This document shows, piece after piece, positions 1 to 64,000 of a stretch of 64,000 bases of DNA. Below the pieces are notes generated by a model. It ran no database searches. It had not been told where the DNA came from and worked only from the letters and a program-made list of their open reading frames with translations. The DNA is from Streptococcaceae bacterium AM104-57 (lineage in GTDB: Bacteria; Bacillota; Bacilli; Lactobacillales; Streptococcaceae). Positions within the stretch are counted from its first letter, which is position 1. Each line of letters begins with the position of its first letter. The stretch spans positions 1 to 64,000 of the forward strand of contig JAQDPW010000002.1 of NCBI GenBank assembly GCA_027659245.1, written 5' to 3'. Position numbers and translations under genes: made by a program.

Positions 1-549
1 GCTTCTTTAGGAATGGAAGGTAGCTTACTTTTCCGTCTTTCTTTGAATTTAACGGCTCTGGCTAGGTCAATAGGAGCGATAGACAGGTAATCTTTTCGGA
101 TGTGTCGATAGACAGTTGAGGAGCTGACATCAAGGTTATGAGTTTTGAGGATATGATAGATGTGTTGTCCCTTTTTAACCCCATCAGAAATGACTTTGTC
201 CATGTCCCAGAAGGTCTTGGAATTGAGAGGAGTTCCTTCACGAGATTCAACAAGAGTTTGTTCGTACTGCTTTTGAGCTTGCTTAGCGAGATAGAAGATT
301 TTCTGATAGCCACAGTTTTGTCTTCTTTTAGGGCATCCATTACAGACAAAGGTAGCTTTATCAAGCAGAGGGCAAGGGAGTTTATCACATGTAGACTGTC
401 GGACTTGTCTGTTTCGTTTGACTTCTTTGGAAACAGTAGTCGGGTCTTTTAGAATAAGTTGGCCAATAGCTTTGAAGGTTTCACCTCGCTCTAAGCCTAG
501 TTGGATATCATTACGGTCTGAAAGGGCAAGATGTTTATGTTTTGTCATA
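1..549 (-). mobile_element. IS30-family transposase, 5' part, cut by window edge
   Basis: An open frame of 183 codons runs on the minus strand from ATG at 549-547 to base 1 without a stop, so the gene continues outside the window. It begins MTKHKHLALSDRNDIQLGLE and carries an N-terminal helix-turn-helix (LERGETFKAIGQLILKDPTT), then a cysteine pair region (CPLLDKATFVCNGCPKRRQNC). This is the usual N-terminal layout of IS30-family transposases from streptococci; the DDE catalytic core would lie beyond the edge. The reading frame seen is intact. The element lies directly upstream of, and divergent from, dnaG. The terminal inverted repeat was not located with confidence in 550-670. Confidence 0.8.
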
Positions 550-671
550 GTGGACCTCATTTCTAACTCAAACGTCTCACACTTAATTCCACCATAAAAA
601 TCCGTTTTAGACTAATTTCCACTTTGGTCAGGCAAGTGGAAGTTACTTTGAGAAGTTAGCATAGGAAATGG

Positions 672-700
672 TTTACTTTTTTTCAGAAATAAGCTATACT
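672..700 (+). promoter_or_regulatory. Promoter for dnaG-rpoD operon
   Basis: TTTACT (672-677), a 17-nt spacer and TATACT (695-700) form a good vegetative promoter. A second AT-rich hexamer (TAAAAT, about 718-723) lies too close to the gene to be the main start. The promoter sits between the IS30 end and dnaG, so the operon does not depend on the element. Confidence 0.65.
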
Positions 701-737
701 AGTTAGAGTAAACTGTGATAAAATGGAGGTATTGTCT

Positions 738-2498
738 ATGGTTGACAAGAGACTCATCGAAGAGATCAAAAACAATACCAATATTGTCGAAATCATAGGA
801 GAAGTGATTTCCTTACAAAAATCTGGACGGAACTTTTTAGGGCTCTGTCCTTTTCATGGTGAAAAGACCCCTTCCTTCAACGTGGTCGAAGATAAGCAAT
901 TTTACCACTGTTTTGGATGTGGTCGTTCTGGAGATGTTTTTAAGTTTATCGAGGAGTATCAGCAGGTAAGCTTTGCGGATGCAGTGAGGATATTAGCTGA
1001 GAGACTTGGGATTCAGATGGCAGCGCCTGTTCAAGGTTCTGTACAGCCTAGGTCACCCCATCAAAATCTCTACGATATGCATGACAAGGCTGCTCGGTTT
1101 TATCATGCCATCCTCATGACAACTAAGATGGGTGAAGAGGCGAGAAACTATCTCTATAAACGTGGCTTAACAGATGATGTTCTAAAGCATTTTATGATTG
1201 GTTTGGCTCCAGCAGAACGCTCTTATCTCTATCAACGTTTAGCAGATGATTATAGCGAAAATGACTTGCTGGATTCAGGTTTGTTTTACCTATCTGAGAG
1301 TAACCAATTCTTTGATACCTTTCATAATCGCATTATGTTCCCGCTCTCAAATGATCAAGGAAAGGTGATTGCCTTTTCTGGTCGAGTATGGCAGGAGGCC
1401 GATTCTCAAACTGGAAAGTATAAAAATAGTCGAGCGACGGCAATTTTTAACAAGAGTTACGAATTATATCATTTGGAGAGGGGAAAAAAAGGATCGGGCA
1501 AGGCTCCTGAAATCTACCTGATGGAAGGGTTTATGGATGTCATTGCGGCTTATCGCGCTGGTATTGAAAATGCAGTTGCTTCTATGGGTACCGCACTGAC
1601 GAGTGAACATGTGGAGCATCTGAAACGCTTTACTAAAAAGGTTATCGTCACTTATGACGGAGATAAGGCTGGGCAAGCTGCCACAGCGAAAGCCTTGGAT
1701 GAGCTTAAAGATTTACCTGTCCAAGTCGTCCAGATTCCTGACGCAATGGATCCGGATGAATATCTGCAGAAAAACTCTCCTCAAGACTTAGCTTATCTAT
1801 TAACCAATACACGCATTAGTCCTGTTGAGTTTTACATTCATCATTTCAGACCTGAAAATAGTGAAAATCTACAAGCTCAGATTGAATTTATAGAGAAAAT
1901 TGCCCCCTTAATCGCCAAGGAACCCTCTATCACAGCTCAGAATTCCTACATTCACATTTTGACGGATCACTTGCCATCTTTTGACTATCAGCAAGTCGAA
2001 CATATTGTCAATGAAAGTCGTGTCAGACAGAGAAAGGAGAAGGTCAAGGAGACCTATAGTCCGAGTCCTGTCACTATGTCTGTTACCAAGCAGCTGACAG
2101 CAGTGATGAGAGCGGAAGCCCATATCCTCTACCGAATGATGGAACATCCCTTGGTGCTTAATGACTATCGTTTAAGAGAGGATTTTATCTTTGAAACTCC
2201 AGAGTTTCAGACCTTGTATGGACTCTTGATTGATAATGGAAGTATCTCATCTGAGGATTTGGCTCATCAGACTATAGAAGTGGAGAGTGCGTGGTATCAA
2301 GTCCTAGCCTTAGATTTGCCACCTGAGATGTCCCCTCACGAGTTAGCCGAAGTGGAAAAGTCTAGAAAAAGAGCTCTTTTGAATCAGGAAAATCTGCAAA
2401 TTAAAAAGAAAGTTCAGGAAGCTAGCCATGTCGGTGATACAGACACCGCATTAGAAGAGCTAGAACGCTTAATTGCCCAAAAAAGAAGAATGGAGTAA
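738..2498 (+). CDS. dnaG: DNA primase DnaG
   Basis: Synthesises RNA primers at the replication fork together with the DnaB-type helicase. The 586-aa product has the CHC2 zinc-binding domain at the N terminus (Cys37, His40, Cys58, Cys61), then the catalytic Toprim region with EGFMDVIAA and [10 protein letters not shown] (acidic metal-binding residues), and a helicase-interacting C-terminal part. I chose ATG 738 (MVDKRLIEE) over the upstream in-frame ATG 723, because GGAGG at 725-729 is then a well placed ribosome binding site; this start gives the length I recall for the pneumococcal protein. rpoD follows after 2 nt, the classic macromolecular-synthesis arrangement without rpsU. Confidence 0.97.
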
Positions 2499-2500
2499 GA

Positions 2501-3610
2501 ATGGCAACAAAACAAAAAGAAGTAACAACCTTTGACGTCCAAGTAGCGGAATTTATTCGCAATCATAAAAAAACTGGTACAGCAACTGATGATGAAATCA
2601 ATAACGCCCTCGTAATTCCCTTCACTTTAGATGTGGAAGGTATTGAGAATCTTTTGCAACGCATTCAAGATGCTGGTATCTCAATTACGGACAACGAAGG
2701 AAATCCAAGTGCGCGTGTTTTGAGCACTGAGGAAGAACCAGAGTTGACTGATGAAGATTTGATTGGTTCAACCTCTGCTAAGGTCAATGACCCTGTCCGT
2801 ATGTATTTGAAAGAAATCGGGGTTGTGCCTCTGCTTACAAATGAAGAGGAAAAAGAGTTGGCCCTTGCTGTTGAAGCAGGTGACATCGAAGCGAAACAAC
2901 GCCTTGCAGAAGCTAACCTTCGTCTGGTTGTTTCTATCGCTAAACGTTATGTTGGACGTGGAATGCAGTTCCTTGACTTGATCCAAGAAGGAAACATGGG
3001 CTTGATGAAGGCCGTTGATAAATTTGACTACTCTAAAGGTTTCAAATTCTCAACTTACGCAACTTGGTGGATTCGTCAAGCCATTACTCGTGCCATTGCT
3101 GACCAAGCTCGTACCATCCGTATCCCAGTTCACATGGTGGAAACCATTAACAAGCTTGTTCGTGAACAACGTAATCTTCTTCAAGAATTGGGACAAGATC
3201 CGACTCCTGAACAAATTGCTGAACGTATGGGTATGACATCGGATAAGGTTCGTGAAATCCTCAAGATTGCCCAAGAACCGGTTTCCCTTGAGACGCCAAT
3301 CGGTGAAGAGGACGACAGCCATCTTGGTGATTTTATCGAGGACGAAGTGATTGAAAATCCAGTGGACTACACAACTCGTATCGTCTTGCGTGAACAGTTG
3401 GATGAAGTGTTAGACACATTGACTGATCGTGAAGAAAATGTCTTGCGTCTCCGCTTTGGTCTTGATGATGGGAAAATGCGTACTCTTGAAGATGTTGGTA
3501 AAGTCTTTAACGTAACGCGTGAACGTATCCGTCAGATTGAAGCCAAAGCTTTGAGAAAACTTCGCCAGCCAAGTCGAAGCAAACCACTTCGTGATTTCAT
3601 TGAAGATTAA
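2501..3610 (+). CDS. rpoD: Primary sigma factor RpoD (sigma A)
   Basis: The housekeeping sigma subunit of RNA polymerase. At 369 aa it has the length usual for low-GC Gram-positives. Visible are region 1.2 ([11 protein letters not shown]), regions 2.1-2.4 with [33 protein letters not shown] and [17 protein letters not shown] (-10 recognition), region 3 ([12 protein letters not shown]), and the region 4.2 helix-turn-helix [20 protein letters not shown] (-35 recognition). The gene starts 2 nt after dnaG, with GGAG overlapping the dnaG stop, so translation is probably coupled. Confidence 0.98.
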
Positions 3611-3627
3611 GTTAAAGGAGAGTGAAG

Positions 3628-3957
3628 ATGGCTTACACAGAAGAACAGATTGAAAATATCAAAACACGTATTTTAACAGCCCTAGAAGAAGTGATTGACC
3701 CAGAATTGGGAATTGATATCGTCAATCTAGGCTTGATCTACGAGATTCGTTTTGATGGCGATACAGGTGAGACTGAAATTGATATGACCTTAACAACCAT
3801 GGGTTGTCCCTTGGCAGATCTCTTAACCGACCAAATCTATGATGCTATGACGGACGTTCCAGAGGTTACTAACGTTGAAGTCAAATTAGTTTGGTATCCA
3901 GCTTGGACGGTTGAAAAAATGAGCCGTTATGCTCGTATCGCTTTAGGTATCAAGTAA
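3628..3957 (+). CDS. MIP18/PaaD-like (DUF59) iron-sulfur assembly family protein
   Basis: A 109-aa single-domain protein of the MIP18 (DUF59) family, whose members (SufT, PaaD, eukaryotic CIA2) help deliver or mature Fe-S clusters. The family signature is clear: EVIDPELGIDIVNLGLIYEI near the N terminus, and TTMGCPLADLLTDQI with the single conserved Cys. The start is ATG 3628, with AAAGGAGAG at 3614-3622; a GTG six bases upstream is less likely. It is 17 nt behind rpoD and ends just before a terminator, so it closes the operon. The exact client in streptococci, which lack a large Fe-S proteome, is unknown to me. Confidence 0.85.
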   Translation: MAYTEEQIENIKTRILTALEEVIDPELGIDIVNLGLIYEIRFDGDTGETEIDMTLTTMGCPLADLLTDQIYDAMTDVPEVTNVEVKLVWYPAWTVEKMSRYARIALGIK

Positions 3958-3967
3958 ATAAATTATA

Positions 3968-4025
3968 AAAAGAGAAATAGTGTAGACGCCAGGAAATTCC
4001 CAGCTTTTATACTATCTCTCTTTTA
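3968..4025 (+). terminator. Terminator of the dnaG-rpoD operon
   Basis: The arm AGAGAAATAGT (3971-3981) pairs with ACTATCTCTCT (4011-4021) with one mismatch, followed by TTTT. The long apical loop makes it imperfect, but the U tract and position fit an intrinsic terminator. Confidence 0.6.
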
Positions 4026-4050
4026 ATTTGCTGATTTTATTTGAAGAAAA

Positions 4051-4059
4051 TGGTATAAT
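4051..4059 (+). promoter_or_regulatory. Extended -10 promoter directly in front of cpoA
   Basis: TG-G-TATAAT (4051-4059) is a perfect extended -10. Seven bases separate it from ATG 4067, which places the expected transcription start at or within a base of the start codon. No -35 hexamer at standard spacing is obvious (TTGCTG at 4028 is 20 nt away). Confidence 0.6.
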
Positions 4060-4066
4060 GGTTACT

Positions 4067-5110
4067 ATGGAAAAAGAGAAATTACGCATCAATATGCTAA
4101 GTTCAAGTGAAAAAGTGGCGGGCCAAGGTGTGTCTGGTGCATACCGTGAACTGGTACAGCTTTTAAAACGAGATGCGAAAGACCAACTGATCGTAACAGA
4201 AAATCTTCCAATCGAAGCGGACGTTACTCATTTTCATACCATTGATTTCCCCTATTATTTATCGACCTTTCAGAAAAAACGTTCTGGACGTAAGATTGGC
4301 TATGTTCACTTCTTACCTGATACCTTGGAAGGTAGTTTGAAGATTCCATTCTTCTTAAAGGGGATTGTCAAACGCTATGTATTTTCTTTTTATGACCGTA
4401 TGGAGCATCTGGTTGTGGTCAATCCTACTTTCATTGAGGATTTGGTGGCTGCTGGAATTCCACGTGAAAAAGTGACCTATATTCCTAACTTTGTCAATAA
4501 AGAAAAATGGCATTCACTTCCTATAGAGCAAGTTGAACAACTTCGTAAAGATATGGGAATTGATGAGAATCAGTTTGTAGTCGTTGGTGCAGGTCAGGTT
4601 CAGAAGCGTAAAGGAATAGATGACTTTATCACTCTAGCTGAGGAATTACCTGATATCACTTTTATTTGGGCTGGTGGCTTCTCTTTTGGGGGAATAACCG
4701 ATGGTTATGAACGCTATAAAAAGATTATGGATAATCCTCCAGAGAATCTGATTTTCCCTGGGATTGTTGATCCAGAACGGATGAGAGAACTCTATGCCTT
4801 GGCTGATCTTTTCTTGCTTCCAAGTTATAACGAGCTCTTTCCAATGACTATTTTAGAGGCAGCAAGTTGTGAAGCTCCCATTATGCTTCGTGATTTGGAT
4901 CTATACAAGGTCATTCTGGAGGGAAATTACAGACCAACTACTGATGTGGATGAGATGAAAGAAGCTATATTGGACTATCGGGAGCATCCAGAAGCTCTGA
5001 GAGAATTGAAAGAAAAGGCAAAGGCTATTTCAAGAGAATACTCAGAAGAGCATTTGCTTGAAATCTGGCTTAAATTTTATCGGGAGCAAGCAGCTTTAGG
5101 AAAAAAATGA
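4067..5110 (+). CDS. cpoA: Glycolipid glycosyltransferase CpoA (GT4)
   Basis: A GT-B, GT4-family transferase matching pneumococcal CpoA, which adds the second sugar (galactose) to glucosyl-diacylglycerol to make the glycolipid that also anchors lipoteichoic acid. The acceptor half carries GQGVSGAYRELV. The nucleotide-sugar half shows VVGAGQVQKRKGIDDFI, then SYNELFPMTILEAASCEAP, the GT4 EX7E-type signature. Candidate starts are ATG 4067 (MEKEKLRINML, 347 aa) and ATG 4058, which lies inside the -10 hexamer and so cannot be in a transcript from that promoter. No Shine-Dalgarno precedes 4067. The partner transferase starts 8 nt downstream. Confidence 0.88.
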   Translation: MEKEKLRINMLSSSEKVAGQGVSGAYRELVQLLKRDAKDQLIVTENLPIEADVTHFHTIDFPYYLSTFQKKRSGRKIGYVHFLPDTLEGSLKIPFFLKGIVKRYVFSFYDRMEHLVVVNPTFIEDLVAAGIPREKVTYIPNFVNKEKWHSLPIEQVEQLRKDMGIDENQFVVVGAGQVQKRKGIDDFITLAEELPDITFIWAGGFSFGGITDGYERYKKIMDNPPENLIFPGIVDPERMRELYALADLFLLPSYNELFPMTILEAASCEAPIMLRDLDLYKVILEGNYRPTTDVDEMKEAILDYREHPEALRELKEKAKAISREYSEEHLLEIWLKFYREQAALGKK

Positions 5111-5118
5111 GGTAGTAT

Positions 5119-6435
5119 ATGCGAATTGGATTATTTACAGATACTTATTTCCCACAGGTGTCGGGTGTTGCGACCAGTATTCGAACCTTAAAAACAGAGC
5201 TTGAAAAGCAAGGACATGCAGTCTTTATCTTCACGACAACCGATAAGGATGTCAATCGTTATGAAGACTGGCAGATTATCCGTATCCCTAGTGTTCCTTT
5301 CTTTGCCTTTAAGGATCGACGTTTCGCCTATCGTGGATTTACAAAAGCTCTTGAGATTGCTAAACAGTATCAACTAGACATTATTCATACGCAAACTGAA
5401 TTTTCTCTTGGTTTATTAGGGATTTGGATTGCGCGTGAATTGCAGATTCCAGTCATTCACACCTATCATACCCAGTATGAAGACTATGTTCACTACATTG
5501 CTAAGGGCTTGTTAATTCGTCCTAGCATGGTCAAGTATCTTGTAAGGGGATTTCTTCATGATGTTGATGGAGTGATTTGTCCAAGTGAAATTGTGCGAGA
5601 CCTCCTATCAGATTATAAGGTCAAAGTAGAAAAACGAGTTATTCCTACAGGGATTGAGCTAGCCAAGTTTGAACGACCTGAGATTGGACCAGAACATATC
5701 GTAGACTTACGTGATAAATTAGGCATTAAGAAAGATGAAAAGATGCTTCTTAGTCTTTCCCGGGTGTCTTACGAAAAGAACATTCAAGCTGTTTTGGCAG
5801 CACTTCCAGATGTTCTAAAAGAAGAGCAAAATGTTAAATTAGTCGTTGCTGGAGATGGACCTTATCTGGAAAACCTCAAGGAGCAAGCAGAAGATTTGCA
5901 GATTCAGGATTCTGTTATCTTTACAGGTATGATCGCTCCAAGCGAGACAGCACTTTACTATAAGGCGGCTGATTTCTTCATTTCAGCTTCAACTAGTGAG
6001 ACGCAAGGCTTGACCTATCTTGAAAGTCTTGCAAGTAAGACTCCGGTAATAGCTCATGGAAATCCTTATCTAGATAATTTGATTAGCGATAAGATGTTTG
6101 GAACTCTTTATTATGAAGAGAGAGATTTAGCAGGGGCTATTTTAGAAGCTTTAATTGCAACTCCAAAGATGGATGAAAAACTTTTGGCTGAAAAATTGTA
6201 TGAAATTTCAGCTGAGAATTTTGCTAAGAGAGTCCATGAGTTTTATTTGGATGCTATCATCTCAAACAATTTTGAAAAAGAATTAACTCGTGATGAGCCG
6301 ATGACACAACGGATTTTAAAGACAGTATTTTACTTGCCACAGCAGGCAGTTTCAGTTCCAGTCAAAAGTTCTAAACGAATGTTAAAAGCATCCAAGAAAC
6401 AGTTGAATGATTTGAGAGATTATTGGAATGACTAA
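5119..6435 (+). CDS. 1,2-diacylglycerol 3-alpha-glucosyltransferase (GT4)
   Basis: A 438-aa GT4 transferase, the partner of CpoA in pneumococcus; it puts the first glucose on diacylglycerol at the membrane. It begins MRIGLFTDTYFPQVSGVATSIRT, the typical N-terminal GT4 loop. It continues with VVAGDGPYLENLKEQ (nucleotide-sugar site) and SASTSETQGLTYLESLASKTP, the E-X7-E catalytic motif. The C-terminal 60 residues are basic (KSSKRMLKASKKQLNDL), fitting peripheral membrane binding. Ribosome binding site GAGGT lies at 5109-5113, 8 nt after the cpoA stop. Because the two transferases form one short operon, precursor and second-step enzyme would be made together. Confidence 0.87.
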   Translation: MRIGLFTDTYFPQVSGVATSIRTLKTELEKQGHAVFIFTTTDKDVNRYEDWQIIRIPSVPFFAFKDRRFAYRGFTKALEIAKQYQLDIIHTQTEFSLGLLGIWIARELQIPVIHTYHTQYEDYVHYIAKGLLIRPSMVKYLVRGFLHDVDGVICPSEIVRDLLSDYKVKVEKRVIPTGIELAKFERPEIGPEHIVDLRDKLGIKKDEKMLLSLSRVSYEKNIQAVLAALPDVLKEEQNVKLVVAGDGPYLENLKEQAEDLQIQDSVIFTGMIAPSETALYYKAADFFISASTSETQGLTYLESLASKTPVIAHGNPYLDNLISDKMFGTLYYEERDLAGAILEALIATPKMDEKLLAEKLYEISAENFAKRVHEFYLDAIISNNFEKELTRDEPMTQRILKTVFYLPQQAVSVPVKSSKRMLKASKKQLNDLRDYWND

Positions 6436-25740: not shown

Positions 25741-25762
25741 GTATAAATTTTTAATAAGAAGC

Positions 25763-25830
25763 GAGGCTAGCCTCCATTGTTATATTCATAACAATGGAGG
25801 CTAGCCTCCATTGTTATATTCATAACAATG
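25763..25830. repeat. Two tandem copies of a 34-bp nested palindrome in the mod leader
   Basis: The unit 25763-25796 is repeated exactly at 25797-25830. Each unit is a 12-nt palindrome (GAGGCTAGCCTC) followed by a second palindrome (stem CATTGTTAT, ATTC loop, ATAACAATG). The order P-Q-P-Q lets the RNA form either two local hairpins per unit or one long hairpin with a 21-bp perfect stem (25763-25808). It lies about 35 bases before the mod start and its ribosome binding site. Confidence 0.85.
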
Positions 25831-25863
25831 GAATCCTAAAAGTCTCTCTTTATGAGGATAAAT

Positions 25864-27699
25864 ATGGATAATAACAGACAAAAAGAACTTCTCGAACTAT
25901 TAGCTCAGGCACAGGAAGAAGTCATGAACGGCAATGAGGTCTCTACGGAGTTTGCACGTGTACTCTTTCCCCCCGCACGAAAAGAATATGAATTAACCTA
26001 CTACGGCAAAGAAGGTGAACAATCTATTATCAGTCAAACTTTTGCCGTGCCTTTGCAAGAAAATCGAAGATTTGGTGAATCTACTGAAAGTGATTGGTTA
26101 AATAAAATTATTTTCGGCGATAATTTACAAGTCTTAAAAACTCTTGTAGAGATGAAGCATAGAGGTGAACTGAAAAATGCGGATGGTACTGACGGCGTGC
26201 GCTTGGTTTATATTGATCCACCGTTTGCGACAAAACAAGATTTTTCGAATAAAGATTCTAAAGCTTATTCTGATAAATTAGCTGGTGCAGAATTTTTAGA
26301 ATGGCTTAGAAAACGTCTTATCCTGCTACGAGAAGTGTTAGCTGATGACGGATCTATTTACGTACACTTGGATTGGCACAAGGCACATTACGTTAAAGTC
26401 TTGATGGATGAGATTTTTGGAGAGGGAAATTTTTGTAATGAGATAGTTTGGTATTATAGACGATGGAATATTGCAGGAAAATATTTTGCTCGAAATCATG
26501 ATACTATATTTTGGTATACAAAAAATAAAGGAAATCATGTTTTTAACCAGATGTATATTCCTAAATCAGAAAAATCTTCTGCTCAGGGGAAGGCTTGGAA
26601 AAGCGTTATTGGAGAAGACGGCAAACGACGGTCAATTCAAACAGATGAAAAGACCAAGGGTGTTCCTATGCCTGATACTTGGGAAATTTCAATGATTAAC
26701 CCAGTTGCCAAAGAGAGAATTGGATACCCTACTCAAAAACCAGAGAAATTGCTTGAACGAATTATTAAATCATCATCAAATAATGGAGATTTAATTCTCG
26801 ATTGTTTTGGAGGTTCGGGAACGACTGCGGCAGTGGCAGAGAAGTTGGGTAGACGATGGATTACTGTAGATGCAGGGAAGTTATCTATTTATACTATTCA
26901 AAAAAGAATATTAGGAAATGAATCACATAAACCTTTTGCAGTTTATGATGCAGGTCTGTATGATAATGAAAAACTAAATGATTTTAATAGTACACAGTGG
27001 AAACAGTTTGCCATGGCTTTATACAATGTTCAACCTTCTTATCAGTCAATCAAAGGACTTTCTTTTGATGGGATGAAAGATGGTTCTCTAGTTAAAGTTT
27101 ATTCCCTTAATGAATTAAATGGAATGGGAGCAAAAATATCAGAAGATACTTTGGAACAGATTTATTCTCGCTTAGGTTCAGCTGCCCCTAATGAGATATT
27201 CATTATTGCTCCTCAAGGGAAATTTACTTTTGCAGTAGATGAGTATGATAATGACGGTGAGTGGAATACAATATTTAATATTCTTCGTGTTCCATATTCA
27301 ATGTACCAAAAATTTACTGAGAATTTCAAAGGTACTTTACAGGCAGACGATACTGACTCGGTAAATGCGGTTGTTGATGCTTACGGATTTGATTTTATGC
27401 GAAAACCCAAAGTTGATTTTGAAATTATTGGAGAAATACTAAGGGTTAATTCTTTTGAATCATTTTCTAGATTGAAAGGCAAAGAAAATATAAGTGGTTT
27501 TGAGGCGTTCTCAATGCTTTTAGTTGATTTAACGTATGATAATAAAGCCTTCAATGTGGATAAAGTATATTACCATAAAGATTTCGATGAAAATCAATCT
27601 ATAACATTTGATGAAAGTCAAATTGGTGGTCAAGCGATGTTTATATTTGTAGATAAATTTGGAAATGAGTTTGTAACAACGAGGGGAGAAATGGCATAA
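25864..27699 (+). CDS. mod: Type III restriction-modification system, methyltransferase Mod
   Basis: An N6-adenine methyltransferase that both protects host DNA and supplies the specificity of the type III complex with Res. The 611-aa chain has catalytic motif IV DPPF (residues 118-121) before the AdoMet-binding motif I (DCFGGSGTT, about 312-320), the beta-class order, with the target-recognition region between and after them. I start at ATG 25864, with GAGG at 25854-25857; ATG 25852 overlaps that ribosome binding site. res follows with a 1-nt overlap. No simple-sequence repeat of the kind that phase-switches many mod genes is seen in the frame. Visibly more AT-rich than the flanking housekeeping genes. 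Confidence 0.93.
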   Translation: MDNNRQKELLELLAQAQEEVMNGNEVSTEFARVLFPPARKEYELTYYGKEGEQSIISQTFAVPLQENRRFGESTESDWLNKIIFGDNLQVLKTLVEMKHRGELKNADGTDGVRLVYIDPPFATKQDFSNKDSKAYSDKLAGAEFLEWLRKRLILLREVLADDGSIYVHLDWHKAHYVKVLMDEIFGEGNFCNEIVWYYRRWNIAGKYFARNHDTIFWYTKNKGNHVFNQMYIPKSEKSSAQGKAWKSVIGEDGKRRSIQTDEKTKGVPMPDTWEISMINPVAKERIGYPTQKPEKLLERIIKSSSNNGDLILDCFGGSGTTAAVAEKLGRRWITVDAGKLSIYTIQKRILGNESHKPFAVYDAGLYDNEKLNDFNSTQWKQFAMALYNVQPSYQSIKGLSFDGMKDGSLVKVYSLNELNGMGAKISEDTLEQIYSRLGSAAPNEIFIIAPQGKFTFAVDEYDNDGEWNTIFNILRVPYSMYQKFTENFKGTLQADDTDSVNAVVDAYGFDFMRKPKVDFEIIGEILRVNSFESFSRLKGKENISGFEAFSMLLVDLTYDNKAFNVDKVYYHKDFDENQSITFDESQIGGQAMFIFVDKFGNEFVTTRGEMA

Positions 27700-30236
27700 T
27701 GGAATATAAAGATAGTGATTTAGTCCTAGAAGTTAGTAAAAACGTAAACCCTGTAGTTTGGGACGAAGGATTTTTTAAAAATTTCTTTGATATGCTATTT
27801 GGAAAAAGAAACTATCAGAAAGAAGCAGCTGAAACTGCTTTACGTTTTCTCAACTCTGGTGAATATAAAGATATAACAGCATTAGCAAAAGAAAATTTTG
27901 AAAAGAATCAAGTCATAAGAGCAAGATGGAACAATGATTTTAATTTGATGCAAGATGATTTAGATTTATCTGACAAGCTGTCAGCAACCTTAGATTTAGC
28001 TACAGGAACAGGGAAGTCATATGTTATGTTTGCGATAGCGCTTGTTATGCTTGCCACAAAAAAAGTTTCTCGAGTTCTGGTATTAGTTCCTAGCGTAACC
28101 ATTGAAAATGAGCTGACTCAAAAATTTAAAAACCTTCTAGGAAATTTACAACTTCTTAAAACTCTAGGAGATAATTTTGTACCACCTCAAATTTTAAATG
28201 GCGATAGTACACTTGTGGAAAATTCCATTGCTGTTGAAAATCGAAATGCTATTTATAAAGCTCAAGCAACTAGAAATTCTATAGTTGATAGTTTAAAGGG
28301 AAATGGCGAAAATACACTTATATTGAATGATGAAGTTCACCATGTTTATTATTCTGAATCGAATGAGTGGAGAAGCTTTATTGAAGATGAAAGTAGTAAT
28401 AATATCAATTTCAAATATGTTATTGGCGTAACAGGAACTGCCTATAAAGGAAAGAATAAAAGTGGGAATGACTACTTTTCAAATGTTATCTATCGTTTCT
28501 CTCTTCGTGATGCAATAGAACAGGGGTTTGTTAAGGATATAGAATACATTTCAAAAGAAGATATTCCAAAAGATAAGGACGAGAGATGGCAAGTAATTTT
28601 GAATTCTCATAACCAAATTGCATCGCAAGTTCCTGAAGAACTTGGTATTAAGCCCATTACAATTATTGTGACGTCCAAACAGAATCTTGCTGATAGTAAA
28701 GCGAAAGCTTTTAAAAAATTTTTACAAACACAAAGAGAGCTGACTGATGCAGAAGTTAATGACATAGTTCTTTCAGTTCATAGTGGACAGAAAGCAGCTA
28801 TTGATAGAATGAAACTGTCTAAAGTTAATGAAAAAGGTAATCCAGTGGAATTTATCTTTAGTGTGTCAATGCTTACTGAAGGTTGGGATGTTAAGCGTGT
28901 ATTTCAGATTGTTCCAGATGACGAAAGAGCATTTAACTCAAAACTTTTGATTGCTCAAGTTCTTGGAAGAGGTTTGCGTGTTCCAGAGGGGTGGGATACT
29001 AGCAAGTGGGGTGCCCCGACAGTGACAGTTTTTAACCATGAAAAATGGTCTGCCAATGTAGAGGCACTTGTAAATGAGGTTCTGGAGATTAGACAGCGAA
29101 TCACTTTGTCTGTTAATAAAGAATCAAATTATAATTTCAGTTTGACGAATGTAAAATATTCTTCAAAAACTGACACTAAAGATTATCCTAAAATGGGTAC
29201 ATATAATTTATGGGAAAATGGTGTTAATTTACCAACAGATGATAAATTTGGGAAGAGTACTATTACCCTGACAGATATTAAGACAAAATCAGATAGAAAC
29301 TTCCAAACAACTTACGAGCATGAGCAGATTACAGTAAAAGAAATGGCGAATATTTTGTATAGCCGATTCGAGGATTTGGAAGACAGTGAGTATGCACAAG
29401 AATATCAGAACTTATGGTCAGTTTCAAAAATAAAAGCCATGATTGAAGAATCGTTGAAAAAAAGTGGAAATACTCATATTACAAAAAGTCTTAAGAATAA
29501 ATTTTTGTCGTCTATGAATGTTATTTTTAGGGATGGTTCAAAAGTAGTTAGTTACGACATTGAGCCGCAAGAATATTTTACCGTTTTAACTGTTAACTTA
29601 CCTAAAAATACTTCTGAAATAAGTGGATTTAGAATGAATAAAGTTCTTTTTTACGGCTCAGATTTGGAATCTAGTCTTTCATCTGATAAAGCTAGTTTAG
29701 ATACTTTCCGAGAACTAACAGACACATCAAATGGATATAAAGCGAAGAAAATTGAGAATAAATACAATTTTAAAACTCCTCAATTTGGGATTGTAACAAC
29801 AGGTAATCCTGAGAAAGAATTTTTAACTAAGCTCACTACTGATGAAGAAGTTATCAAAAGTATTGATTCGTTCATAAAATCCGATGACATGAGTTTTTAC
29901 AGTATTGACTATTCTTGGCAAAAAGGTACCCACCATAAGAATGGACAATTTAATCCAGACTGGTTTATTAAACAAGGTGATAATATTATTGCTGTAGAAA
30001 TTAAAGATAATTCACAAATTTCTGAACCAGATTCAGAGAATATTGGGAAAAACAAAGCAGCGATTAAACATTTTAATTTTATAAATGAAAAGCATGAATC
30101 AGAAGGTAATTTAACTAGATATAAATTTACATTTTTGACACCTAAAGATTTTGATATATTCTTTAAGAAACTCTCTGAGAAAGATATAATGAATTTCAAG
30201 AGTCAATTAGATGTTAAATTAGCTGACTCTAAATAA
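27699..30236 (+). CDS. res: Type III restriction-modification system, helicase-nuclease Res
   Basis: The ATP-dependent restriction subunit that translocates or slides after Mod finds its site, then cuts. The 845-aa protein has the SF2 Walker A DLATGTGKSYVMF (about residues 97-109), the Walker B box NDEVHH (about 209-214), motif III GVTGTAYKG, motif VI region QVLGRGLRVPE, and a C-terminal PD-(D/E)XK nuclease (PDWFIKQGDNIIAVEIKDN, about residues 752-770). Start ATG overlaps the mod stop (TAATG), so translation is coupled. Frame is intact. The gene is AT-rich and the pair sits between IS remnants and lysS, which indicates acquisition by transfer. Confidence 0.94.
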   Translation: MEYKDSDLVLEVSKNVNPVVWDEGFFKNFFDMLFGKRNYQKEAAETALRFLNSGEYKDITALAKENFEKNQVIRARWNNDFNLMQDDLDLSDKLSATLDLATGTGKSYVMFAIALVMLATKKVSRVLVLVPSVTIENELTQKFKNLLGNLQLLKTLGDNFVPPQILNGDSTLVENSIAVENRNAIYKAQATRNSIVDSLKGNGENTLILNDEVHHVYYSESNEWRSFIEDESSNNINFKYVIGVTGTAYKGKNKSGNDYFSNVIYRFSLRDAIEQGFVKDIEYISKEDIPKDKDERWQVILNSHNQIASQVPEELGIKPITIIVTSKQNLADSKAKAFKKFLQTQRELTDAEVNDIVLSVHSGQKAAIDRMKLSKVNEKGNPVEFIFSVSMLTEGWDVKRVFQIVPDDERAFNSKLLIAQVLGRGLRVPEGWDTSKWGAPTVTVFNHEKWSANVEALVNEVLEIRQRITLSVNKESNYNFSLTNVKYSSKTDTKDYPKMGTYNLWENGVNLPTDDKFGKSTITLTDIKTKSDRNFQTTYEHEQITVKEMANILYSRFEDLEDSEYAQEYQNLWSVSKIKAMIEESLKKSGNTHITKSLKNKFLSSMNVIFRDGSKVVSYDIEPQEYFTVLTVNLPKNTSEISGFRMNKVLFYGSDLESSLSSDKASLDTFRELTDTSNGYKAKKIENKYNFKTPQFGIVTTGNPEKEFLTKLTTDEEVIKSIDSFIKSDDMSFYSIDYSWQKGTHHKNGQFNPDWFIKQGDNIIAVEIKDNSQISEPDSENIGKNKAAIKHFNFINEKHESEGNLTRYKFTFLTPKDFDIFFKKLSEKDIMNFKSQLDVKLADSK

Positions 30237-59889: not shown

Positions 59890-60741
59890 ATGGCTATTAT
59901 TCAATGGTTTCCTGGCCACATGTCCAAGGCAAGAAGACAGGTTCAGGAAAATTTAAAATTTGTTGATTTTGTGACGATTTTGGTGGATGCCCGCTTGCCC
60001 TTGTCTAGTCAAAATCCGATGCTAACTAAAATTGTAGGAGATAAACCAAGGCTCCTGATTTTAAACAAGGCAGATCTAGCAGACCCAGTTCAAACGAAAG
60101 AATGGCGTCAGCACTTTGAATCACAAGGGATTCAAACCCTAGCTATTAACTCCAAAGAGCAGGTTACAGTTAAAGTTGTGACAGATGCAGCCAAAAAGCT
60201 TATGGCAGATAAGATTGCTCGTCAAAAAGAACGTGGTATACAAATCGAAACTTTGCGAACTATGATTATCGGGATTCCAAACGCTGGAAAATCTACATTG
60301 ATGAACCGATTAGCTGGTAAGAAAATTGCTGTAGTTGGTAACAAACCAGGTGTCACCAAGGGGCAACAATGGCTTAAAACCAATAAGGACCTTGAAATCT
60401 TGGACACTCCGGGGATTCTCTGGCCGAAATTCGAAGATGAAACTGTCGCTCTTAAACTTGCATTGACTGGAGCTATCAAAGACCAATTGCTTCCGATGGA
60501 TGAAGTGACGATTTTCGGTCTTAATTACTTTAAAACCCATTATCCCGATAAGCTTCAAGAACGTTTTAAACAAATGAATCTGGACGATGAAGCTCCTGAA
60601 ATTATCATGGACATGACTCGTATCCTTGGTTTCCGTGATGATTACGATCGTTTTTACAATCTCTTTGTCAAAGAAGTTCGTGATGGAAAACTTGGTAATT
60701 ACACATTAGATACATTGGATGATCTCAATGGCAACGATTAA
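59890..60741 (+). CDS. rbgA: Ribosome assembly GTPase RbgA (YlqF)
   Basis: A circularly permuted GTPase needed for late 50S assembly. The 283-aa protein starts [17 protein letters not shown]. The permuted order is visible: G4 LNKADL comes before G1 [16 protein letters not shown], then G3 LDTPGILWP, followed by a C-terminal RNA-binding tail. AGAAAGGA precedes ATG. The 3' end overlaps rnhB by 14 nt. Confidence 0.97.
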
Positions 60742-61507
60742 AGAAATAAAAGAAGAATTAGCAAGGATAACTGAACTTGAAAGTCCCTTGTTTAAGGAAT
60801 TTGAAAAAGACCCACGAACTGGCGTACAAAAGGAAATTCAAAAGCGTAAAAAAGCTATTCAAGCAGAAATTGATGAAAATCTCCGCTTAGAGGCTATGCT
60901 TAGCTATGAAAAAGAGCTTTACGAAAATGGAATAAGCTTCATTGCTGGAGTTGATGAAGTTGGTAGAGGTCCCTTAGCTGGTCCTGTTGTTGCTGCAGCA
61001 GTCATTCTGCCCAAAAATTGTAAAATAAAAGGCTTGAATGACAGTAAAAAGATTCCAAAGAAAAAACATCAAGAGATTTTTCAAGCCGTTAAGGACAATG
61101 CTTTAGCGATTGCTATTGGAATTATGGATAATCATGTCATTGATCAAGTCAATATCTACGAAGCGACGAAACTAGCCATGAAGGAAGCTATCTCTCAACT
61201 TGAACCTCAGCCAGAACATCTTTTGATTGATGCTATGAAATTGGATTTGCCGATTTCTCAAACATCCATCATCAAAGGGGATGCCAACTCCTTATCTATT
61301 GCAGCAGCATCTATCGTTGCGAAGGTTACAAGAGATAAGATCATGGCTAACTATGACGAAGAATTTCCAGGCTATGATTTTGCTCAAAATGCTGGCTATG
61401 GAACTGCTAAGCATCTAGAAGGAATTGAAAAGCACAGTGTCACACCTATTCATCGCACCAGTTTTGAACCGATAAAAACGATCGTTTCAGAAACTAGTAA
61501 AAGATAA
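60728..61507 (+). CDS. rnhB: Ribonuclease HII
   Basis: Removes ribonucleotides and RNA-DNA hybrids from DNA. The 259-aa enzyme has an N-terminal helical extension (residues 1-70) seen in streptococcal RnhB, then the catalytic core: [22 protein letters not shown] (first acidic pair), [23 protein letters not shown] and [22 protein letters not shown] 60728 ([11 protein letters not shown]) lies within the end of rbgA, and the short overlap implies coupled translation. Confidence 0.96.
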
Positions 61508-61522
61508 TTAAAGGAGAGAATT

Positions 61523-63073
61523 ATGGAGGAACAGTCGGAAATACTTAGTTCTAAGAAAGAATTTGCCTTCGCGTCCAGTACGATCTTAGCTCAAGTAGGG
61601 CGAGGTATTATTGTTGGATTAGTCGTAGGACTTATTGTAGGATCATTTCGATTTTTGATCGAAAAAGGCTTTCATATCGTTCAAGGATTTTATCAAGACC
61701 AAGAGAATCTGATACGGAATCTATTGATCATTTTATTGTTTTATATCCTCATTTGCTTACTTAGTGCCAAATTAACACGCTCAGAAAAAGATATCAAAGG
61801 TTCTGGTATTCCTCAAGTTGAAGCGGAGTTAAAAGGTCTCATGTCTCTCAACTGGTGGAGTGTCCTCTGGAAGAAATACATTCTAGGTATCTTGGCCATA
61901 GCGAGTGGGCTCATGTTAGGGCGTGAAGGTCCCAGTATTCAGCTAGGAGCCGTTGGAGGAAAAGGAATTGCAAAATGGCTTAAGTCTAGTCCTGTTGAGG
62001 AGAGATCTTTGATTGCTAGCGGAGCTGCTGCTGGACTTGCTGCAGCCTTTAATGCACCGATTGCGGGGTTATTATTTGTAGTAGAAGAAGTCTATCACCA
62101 TTTTTCACGATTCTTCTGGGTTTCTACCTTGGCTGCTAGTCTTGTAGCAAACTTTGTTTCCCTTCTCATCTTTGGCTTAACACCTGTACTTGATATGCCG
62201 GACAATATCCCTCTCATGGACTTGAGCCAATATTGGATTTATCTGGTGATGGGAATTTTTCTAGGACTCTCAGGTTTTCTCTATGGAAAAGCCGTTCTTA
62301 GCGTTGGAAAAGTATATGATTGGATTGGCCAAAAAATTTATATGGATAAGGCCTATTATCCTATTCTAGCCTTTCTTCTTATCATCCCAGTAGGAATCTT
62401 CCTGCCACAGATACTTGGTGGAGGCAATCAGGTTGTCTTATCCTTAACAGAACAGAATTTTAGTTTTCAAATTCTCTTGGCTTACTTTATTATTCGCTTT
62501 ATCTGGAGTATGATTAGTTATGGTAGTGGACTGCCAGGTGGTATTTTCTTGCCAATTTTAGCTTTAGGCTCCTTACTTGGTGCCCTGGTAGGTGTTATTT
62601 GTGTCAATCTTGGCCTCGTTACACAGCAGCAATTCCCTATCTTTGTGATTCTTGGAATGAGCGGTTATTTTGGAGCTATCTCAAAAGCACCTTTGACAGC
62701 TATGATTCTTGTGACGGAAATGGTTGGTGACATCCGCAATCTCATGCCTTTAGGGATGGTGACCCTAGTTGCCTATATTGTTATGGATCTGCTTAAAGGG
62801 GCACCCGTCTATGAAGCCATGCTAGAAAAAATGCTACCTGAATCAGCAACTGATGATGGAGAAGTTACCCTAATTGAAATTCCAGTATCAGATAAAATAG
62901 CTGGTAAGCAAGTACATGAACTCAATTTACCTCATAACGTACTTATCACAACCCAAGTACATAATGGGAAAAGTAAGACAGTTAATGGATCTACAAGGAT
63001 GTATCTAGGGGATATGATTCATCTCGTGATTCCAAAAAGTGAAATTGGAAAAGTGAAAGATTTGTTGTTGTAA
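61523..63073 (+). CDS. ClC-family chloride channel/transporter with TrkA-C domain
   Basis: A 516-aa membrane protein with the ClC selectivity motifs in order: GSGIPQVE, GREGPSIQLG, and GSGLPGGIFLP, within about ten or more helices. The C-terminal part (IPVSDKIAGKQVHELNLPHN ... GDMIHLVIPKSEIGKVKDLL) is a TrkA-C regulatory domain instead of the CBS pair of eukaryotic channels. In bacteria such proteins exchange chloride or fluoride for protons and may help acid tolerance. AAAGGAGAG precedes ATG, 15 nt after rnhB. Confidence 0.92.
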   Translation: MEEQSEILSSKKEFAFASSTILAQVGRGIIVGLVVGLIVGSFRFLIEKGFHIVQGFYQDQENLIRNLLIILLFYILICLLSAKLTRSEKDIKGSGIPQVEAELKGLMSLNWWSVLWKKYILGILAIASGLMLGREGPSIQLGAVGGKGIAKWLKSSPVEERSLIASGAAAGLAAAFNAPIAGLLFVVEEVYHHFSRFFWVSTLAASLVANFVSLLIFGLTPVLDMPDNIPLMDLSQYWIYLVMGIFLGLSGFLYGKAVLSVGKVYDWIGQKIYMDKAYYPILAFLLIIPVGIFLPQILGGGNQVVLSLTEQNFSFQILLAYFIIRFIWSMISYGSGLPGGIFLPILALGSLLGALVGVICVNLGLVTQQQFPIFVILGMSGYFGAISKAPLTAMILVTEMVGDIRNLMPLGMVTLVAYIVMDLLKGAPVYEAMLEKMLPESATDDGEVTLIEIPVSDKIAGKQVHELNLPHNVLITTQVHNGKSKTVNGSTRMYLGDMIHLVIPKSEIGKVKDLLL

Positions 63074-63141
63074 GAGTTTTTACATAATTTAGGTTATGCA
63101 AAAACCGCATTAAGAAAATTCCAAGGAGGACCTACATCATA

Positions 63142-63342
63142 ATGAAAATACTTTATGTTCTACATAAGTTTTATGGTGATTTTGAATTCATTAAAGAAAA
63201 GTGTAATGAAAAATACGAAGGTATCCTCATTAATATAAAGGAAGATAAAGATAAAGAATATAAAAGATGTGGCTTGGCAAAAATAACGCTGAAAAATAAG
63301 GATATTTTACCATCTTTTAAAAAATACTTATTGTTGCAATAG
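63142..63342 (+). CDS. Hypothetical 66-aa protein, AT-rich accessory region
   Basis: A small Lys/Glu/Asp-rich ORF, MKILYVLHKFYGDFEFIKEK and on, ending KKYLLLQ. AGGAGG at 63124-63129 is a strong Shine-Dalgarno, but 12 nt from the ATG, a little far. An imperfect hairpin (GTTTTTACATAA / TTATGCAAAAAC, 63076-63105) separates it from clcA. I do not recognise a family, and there is no signal or membrane segment. Base composition is visibly more AT-rich than clcA, as for the ATPase gene that follows. Confidence 0.5.
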   Translation: MKILYVLHKFYGDFEFIKEKCNEKYEGILINIKEDKDKEYKRCGLAKITLKNKDILPSFKKYLLLQ

Positions 63343-63448
63343 ATGACTGTCATTGCGGTTTATTATAATTCCCAAAGAGATGCCTAGCAGTAAAAAAGCC
63401 TTTCTACATAGAATTGTAAAGGAAAGATAGCTATTGAAGAATAAAGAG

Positions 63449-63534
63449 CATTATTTTCTCCATAAATTTAATTAAATTAATGTTTTTATGGTATAATGAA
63501 TTCAAAGTGAAAAGAATTTATGGAGAAAATAATG
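63449..63534 (+). promoter_or_regulatory. Perfect 20-bp inverted repeat flanking the promoter and covering the start of the ATPase gene
   Basis: The left arm CATTATTTTCTCCATAAATT (63449-63468) is the exact reverse complement of 63515-63534. The right arm contains the ribosome binding site GGAG (63522-63525) and the whole start codon ATG (63532-63534). Between the arms lies an extended -10 TG-G-TATAAT (hexamer 63492-63497) with an expected start near 63504, so RNA from that promoter would lack the left arm while read-through RNA would contain both arms. Confidence 0.85.
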
Positions 63535-64000
63535 AAAATCAGCATTGAAAAAATTGGAAAAATTCACCACTCAGATATAATAATTGACGGGCTTACTATT
63601 ATCGCTGGTAAAAACTCAACAGGAAAAAGCACAGTAAGCAAATCATTATTCGCTATCTTTAATTCATTTTTTAAAATTACACAGACGTATAGATCATATA
63701 AAGAACGAGCAATTAAAAGTAAAATATTAGATCTAGATAATTATTTGGACATTTTCTTTTTTAACGAAAATCCTATAGACCTTAATATAGTTGTTTTAAA
63801 ACTTATTTCAGCTCAGACAGAAGAAGATATTAAAAAAGTTTTTAACCTATATAGTTTAAATGAACAATTGTCTGAATCAAATTTTCAAAAGTTGATTTTG
63901 GATATATATAAAATAAACCAATCAACAATGCAACAGATGCTGTTCGAAGAAACCAATAATTATTTCGAATCAGAATTTTCATCTAACATAAATAATGTAA
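63532..64000 (+). CDS. AAA-type ATPase of an accessory system, 5' part, cut by window edge
   Basis: An open frame from ATG 63532 to the window end (156 codons seen, no stop). It begins MKISIEKIGKIHHSDIIIDG, followed by LTIIAGKNSTGKSTVSKSLF, a Walker A motif (G-K-N-S-T-G-K-S) in the N-terminal layout of the AAA_15/AAA_23 SMC-like or OLD-like ATPases found in many phage-defence systems. The visible part then becomes helical and charged. GGAG lies 6 nt before ATG. The rest of the gene and any partner lie outside the window, so the system cannot be named. Confidence 0.8.
   Translation, partial: MKISIEKIGKIHHSDIIIDGLTIIAGKNSTGKSTVSKSLFAIFNSFFKITQTYRSYKERAIKSKILDLDNYLDIFFFNENPIDLNIVVLKLISAQTEEDIKKVFNLYSLNEQLSESNFQKLILDIYKINQSTMQQMLFEETNNYFESEFSSNINNV

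Follow-up and report, generated by a model that had tools for sequence, protein, structure and literature searches.

The ATPase gene and its putative partner

The window analysed here is a stretch of 64,000 nucleotides, and its right-hand end holds a chloride channel gene, the remains of a mepB-like gene, an inverted repeat with a promoter between its arms and the first part of an ATPase gene (Table 1).

Table 1 Features at the right-hand end of the window
Feature	Coordinates	Strand	Details and basis
ClC-type chloride channel gene, co-directional upstream neighbour	61523..63073	+	Pfam Voltage_CLC, E 2.7e-95
Decayed MepB-like pseudogene	63142..63434	+	Open frame left at 63142-63342; BLAST to L010-L018, L030-L039
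Left (anti-SD/anti-AUG) arm of the inverted repeat	63449-63468	+	CATTATTTTCTCCATAAATT
Extended -10 element	63489-63497	+	TGGTATAAT; TG 63489-63490, TATAAT 63492-63497; perfect match
Right arm of the inverted repeat	63515-63534	+	AATTTATGGAGAAAATAATG; SD GGAG 63522-63525, terminates on ATG 63532-63534
AAA_15/AAA_21-type ATPase gene, first part (cut by the window end)	63532..64000	+	PADLOC, homologue alignment

The ATPase fragment within the window (160 aa) matches no Pfam family; its top PADLOC match is PD-T4-4_A (E 1.3e-9), overlapped by weaker matches to the ATPases of Septu, Gabija and PARIS. The three full-length distant homologues that were tested (417–436 aa) are AAA_15/AAA_21 proteins. 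The homologous loci L001, L009, L046 and L047 contain a second gene, ~180–200 aa long, which overlaps the 3′ end of the ATPase gene; its product has 132 homologues at E ≤ 0.001 and carries a conserved D...E-x-K motif, mostly in the form FIEFKNG, which we take to be reminiscent of PD-(D/E)xK nucleases. Pfam matches none of the three second-gene products tested. Judged by these homologues, the acquired ATPase cassette probably consists of two genes. On account of the PADLOC and AAA_15/AAA_21 matches and the motif-bearing second gene of the homologues, the label ‘defence ATPase’, which the first-pass annotation had proposed as probable, is a fair guess. For PD-T4-4 itself a PD(D/E)XK nuclease domain is tabulated (PMC10952713), and the likeness to our locus lies in the best PADLOC match of the ATPase and in the motif of the homologues’ second gene. 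The likeness is limited, however, in that the ATPase match is weak and common to the Septu, PARIS and Gabija ATPases, and in that the second genes of L009 and L046 match no PADLOC model (0/2).

A variable cargo slot at difSL and xerS

The mepB remnant immediately upstream of the cassette resembles different relatives in its two parts, which are separated by a deletion: up to 63327 it is similar to locus L010 (88%, including the end of the ClC gene), whose mepB-like copy is recognised by Pfam as MepB-like (E 2.3e-38), and from 63328 to 63434 to the copies in L030–L035 (79–86%). The similarity to fuller mepB-like copies reaches as far as 63434, which leaves 14 bp to the left arm, and the ATPase cassette begins at this break in the decayed gene. 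Because it does so, two rival explanations of the repeat, an invertible promoter and a scar of rearrangement, stay in contention, and we return to each of them below.

In L010 and similar relatives the ClC gene is followed by the mepB-like gene, difSL and xerS, the last two being identified by the difSL half-sites TTTCCGAAAA and TTTTCTTGAAA and the adjoining 356-aa recombinase, as set out in the published description (PMC5357621). A further 20 loci from relatives (L052–L071), all starting near the end of the ClC gene, were inspected, and in 19 of them difSL (0–1 mismatch, at locus positions 429–5803) is followed by xerS; the exception, L059, has neither within its 6.1 kb. The cargo between the ClC gene and difSL/xerS differs from relative to relative (16 of the 20 loci viewed), one example being a DNA methyltransferase predicted by eye in L067. 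This interval is, in this genus, a slot for variable cargo. The genus is presumably Streptococcus, to judge by the difSL/xerS pair of the relatives and by gene content. The window has no difSL site even when 3 mismatches are allowed, and the site of this genome should therefore lie beyond 64000, where the relatives lead one to expect xerS as well.

An inverted repeat around the promoter and start codon

The first-pass annotation had described a perfect 20-bp inverted repeat bracketing a promoter, with the ribosome binding site and the start codon in its right arm, and this description holds in full. The arms are complementary in 20 of 20 bp and enclose a loop of 46 nt, which makes the whole unit of arms and loop 86 bp long; they are identical, and the pairing does not extend outward beyond them. 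The list of open reading frames places the ATPase start at 63520; all seven close homologues (61–99% identical) begin at the codon at 63532, and the right arm consequently terminates exactly on the start codon.

This 20-bp repeat is real and exceptional. When the best repeat overlapping the SD or the start was scored, the observed value was 20, whereas 300 dinucleotide shuffles of the 300-bp region averaged 7.4 and never exceeded 12. As a background, ten other genomes of the genus were sampled in 40 stretches of 20 kb each (797,500 bp, N excluded); perfect inverted repeats of 12 bp or longer with loops of 20–120 numbered 10, the longest of them 16 bp, and none of the 10 lies over the SD or start of an ORF with 60 or more codons. 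Neither arm recurs in the window when up to 3 mismatches are allowed, where 0.03 matches would be expected by chance.

The loop contains the sole extended -10 element on the plus strand of 63000-63560 (counting elements with TG, with A as the second base of the hexamer and with no more than 2 mismatches to TATAAT). The -35 element of this promoter is poor, which is why a generic sigma-70 scan that demands both hexamers omits it; extended -10 promoters are able to work without a good -35. Judged from the position of the -10 element, transcription would start at ~63504 and hence downstream of the left arm. The left arm is situated just 5′ of the -35 region and the right arm just 3′ of the presumed transcription start.

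The placement of two perfect arms on either side of the promoter elements would also suit a paired protein-binding site, an operator in which hiding of the start codon is a side effect, or a target for a double-strand RNase that tunes mRNA stability; a 20-bp RNA duplex would be a substrate of RNase III. We consider an operator or RNase target very improbable. By eye the arms have no clear internal dyad symmetry, their centres are 66 bp apart, a non-integral number of helical turns, and the arm is not found at up to 1 mismatch in any of the 59 relatives searched, which rules out an operator that is widespread among them.

A second reading of the same geometry takes the arms as recombination sites, so that flipping of the 46-bp loop would turn the promoter away from the gene and subject it to phase variation; the SD and ATG would survive such an inversion because both arms are identical. 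Perfect inverted repeats bracketing a promoter are what this reading calls for. It has a streptococcal precedent in SZO08560 of S. zooepidemicus, where inverted repeats likewise stand either side of the promoter and where a recombinase gene is named next to the corresponding promoter in a different strain (PMC2654543). The slot of the relatives, moreover, is followed by the tyrosine recombinase gene xerS. The precedent differs in having 10-bp repeats at -170 to -55, a segment of ~115 bp (PMC2654543), and our loop of 46 bp between 20-bp arms is far shorter. Inspection by eye of the 50 ORFs of at least 150 aa in the window revealed no site-specific recombinase. When the arms were compared with difSL as candidate XerS half-sites the best alignment left 6 of 20 positions mismatched, which 2.6% of 2000 shuffles equalled, and this candidate was rejected as weak. 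On balance an invertible promoter is distinctly improbable.

Predicted folding of read-through and promoter-started RNA

The consequences of the repeat for the RNA were computed with ViennaRNA as the opening cost, i.e. the free energy in kcal/mol needed to free the SD–AUG region (63522-63534). For read-through RNA the first-pass annotation had predicted a hidden start, and the computation agrees: with seven 5′ ends from 62950 to 63449 the opening cost is 11.9–16.9 kcal/mol. It falls to 3.1 kcal/mol when half of the left arm is gone (5′ end 63460) and, with six 5′ ends between 63470 and 63510, to 1.5–2.7 kcal/mol. RNA started by the promoter itself at 63504 requires 2.6 kcal/mol, in line with the further claim that this transcript is open. 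The left arm accounts for the difference in the model, since 50 shuffles of this arm in RNA from 63300 bring the cost of read-through RNA down to a mean of 2.5 kcal/mol (range 1.6–6.2). RNAfold gives -27.5 kcal/mol for 63440-63560 (z -4.84; none of 200 shuffles is as good) and places both SD and AUG within a stem of 21 bp, as against -5.2 kcal/mol (z 0.28) for the RNA from 63504. The minus strand of the repeat region folds strikingly as well (z -5.66), as is expected of any inverted repeat. A known riboswitch or leader was also considered and rejected, there being no Rfam match to E 1 in 61000-64000.

Whether the closed state arises depends on transcription from upstream. Three upstream ORFs (59890-63073) are co-directional with the ATPase gene, and no terminator-like site was found in 62900-64000, which together make RNA read-through into the ATPase gene plausible; a weak A/T-rich hairpin (-7.0 kcal/mol) 3′ of the ClC gene might end part of it. 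Provided that read-through RNA is made, the modelled RNA switch follows near-inevitably from the sequence, and the predicted lock holds as physics.

A possible read-through lock on the cassette

We tentatively favour the view, at a little below even chances, that the repeat acts as a transposon-style read-through lock on the acquired ATPase cassette. RNA that enters from the ClC/mepB side would carry both arms, and these would pair into a hairpin of 20–21 bp that buries the SD and AUG; the read-through RNA would be closed and for this reason untranslated. The promoter in the loop, by contrast, would start RNA past the left arm, and this RNA would be open and translated. With read-through RNA closed and promoter RNA open, the cassette would obey its own promoter alone at any landing site. 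For the lock to operate, both RNAs would have to exist, the hairpin would have to block ribosomes in the cell and selection would have to keep the left arm. Selection is suggested by the exact fit of the repeat on the SD, the AUG and the promoter, by the perfection of the arms and by the position of an acquired cassette behind co-directional genes. The variable cargo in the slot of the relatives also favours a lock, as insulation from neighbours would pay there.

The transposases of IS10 and IS50 are protected from impinging transcription. These elements share with the ATPase locus an inverted repeat around the promoter, an SD that is hidden in read-through RNA and an open RNA from the internal promoter, the closed and open states being computed ones at the ATPase locus; the feature typical of a pit-like lock, one arm 5′ of the promoter and a second covering SD and AUG, is present here. 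There, however, the protected gene encodes a transposase, whereas here it belongs to an ATPase cassette. There is no sign that the arms are the ends of a mobile element, the pair being single-copy in the window and the arm absent at up to 1 mismatch from 59 relatives and at up to 2 from 119 loci, although a single-copy element would fit these counts. To our knowledge, the logic of the read-through lock has so far been known from transposases. A further likeness is offered by the tnp 5′-UTR of ISPpu9 in Pseudomonas putida, in which a leader structure also buries the RBS and its weakening raised a reporter 26-fold (PMC8450116). In ISPpu9 the fold is formed by the long leader of the gene itself and is opened by an sRNA (PMC8450116), whereas at the ATPase locus the choice of promoter would decide.

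A bolder version of the lock is doubtful: that the 86-bp promoter-leader unit is a portable RNA insulator, evolved independently of transposons, which sits on an acquired defence cassette in the difSL/xerS cargo slot and makes a potentially harmful ATPase operon unresponsive to whatever genes lie upstream. A lock of either kind, if real, would mean that defence-like cassettes can bring along on acquisition a means of insulating themselves from local transcription, which is a problem that every mobile toxic gene faces on landing. It also provides a sharp sequence signature with which the DNA upstream of other cargo genes can be screened.

Distribution of the repeat and origin of the left arm

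Homologue DNA was searched for in 284 genomes of the genus, 395 of the order, 398 of the class (E ≤ 1e-10) and 299 of the phylum (E ≤ 1e-20), sets that overlap, and in genome contigs, viral contigs, plasmids and phages. Among the matches listed, the genome and contig searches gave distant homologues; a pattern search of the genome contigs confirmed at least one relative, the phage search gave one record with a distant homologue, plasmids yielded no homologues, and there were no relatives among the viral-contig matches listed (600 pattern matches in one search). The repeat survey accordingly covers distant homologues, and the close homologues P0001–P0005 (75–99% identical) were compared as proteins alone.

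The upstream DNA was readable for 11 distant homologues, and in none of them does a comparable repeat precede the gene (best scores 5–9 against 20); the nearest of the 11 share ~61% over only 46 residues. L048 is included with its start set one codon late. The survey leaves out 15 loci: L004–L008, L042, L043 and L115–L119 are partial or match only in the later part of the protein, L044 is a weak match aligned from residue 16, L045 has no alignment row and L040 is the same place as L002. Since 0/11 distant homologues have a comparable repeat, it does not appear to be a property of the whole ATPase family. The first-pass annotation’s own rule thus refutes a lock that extends across the family, and what is left standing is a lock specific to this lineage.

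The arm is equally scarce outside the family. Apart from its absence from the 59 relatives at up to 1 mismatch, it has no match at up to 2 mismatches and two at 3 in 119 loci (1,130,202 bp, overlaps kept), and no pair of arms within 200 bp, at up to 4 mismatches each, occurs in these 119 loci; a dispersed repeat or MITE was rejected on the strength of these counts. When the surrounding DNA was compared with 279 genomes of the genus, the left arm remained uncovered among the matches listed. Searched in its own orientation, the left arm finds in each of the 20 slot loci of the relatives a best match with 5–7 mismatches, and the idea that the arm is an ancestral part of the slot was likewise abandoned. 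In the opposite orientation the best matches in the same loci have 4–7 mismatches, which is partly due to a resemblance of the ATPase leader to that of xerS (ATTTATGGAGAAAATACATGAAA in several relatives).

Two of these observations speak against selection for the left arm, namely the rearrangement break only 14 bp away, on account of which the arm may be accidental, and the lack of the repeat in all 11 distant homologues. Both would be expected of a rearrangement scar, in which replication template switching, as the cassette was joined to the broken mepB-like gene, copied 20 bp of the leader in inverted orientation; identical arms with no outward extension of the pairing are also what such an event would leave. 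The arm would then be recent and without a selected role, and it may disturb read-through expression. The scar would nevertheless have to explain why the copied stretch ends precisely on the AUG and lies just outside the promoter, as the lock requires; such a placement may have come about by chance, a possibility we do not favour, and we regard the scar as unlikely.

Two minor observations concern other loci. In two other genomes of the genus (L049:680-735 and L050:653-709) an extended -10 element and a leader similar to those of the ATPase gene precede genes that we assume to be Fic-like; a different repeat lies upstream of these genes, and neither locus has a match to the left arm. Within the window, long near-perfect palindromes are situated at 25754-25832, 5′ of what is presumably a type III restriction-modification locus (25852-30236) and near genes that we take to encode transposases.
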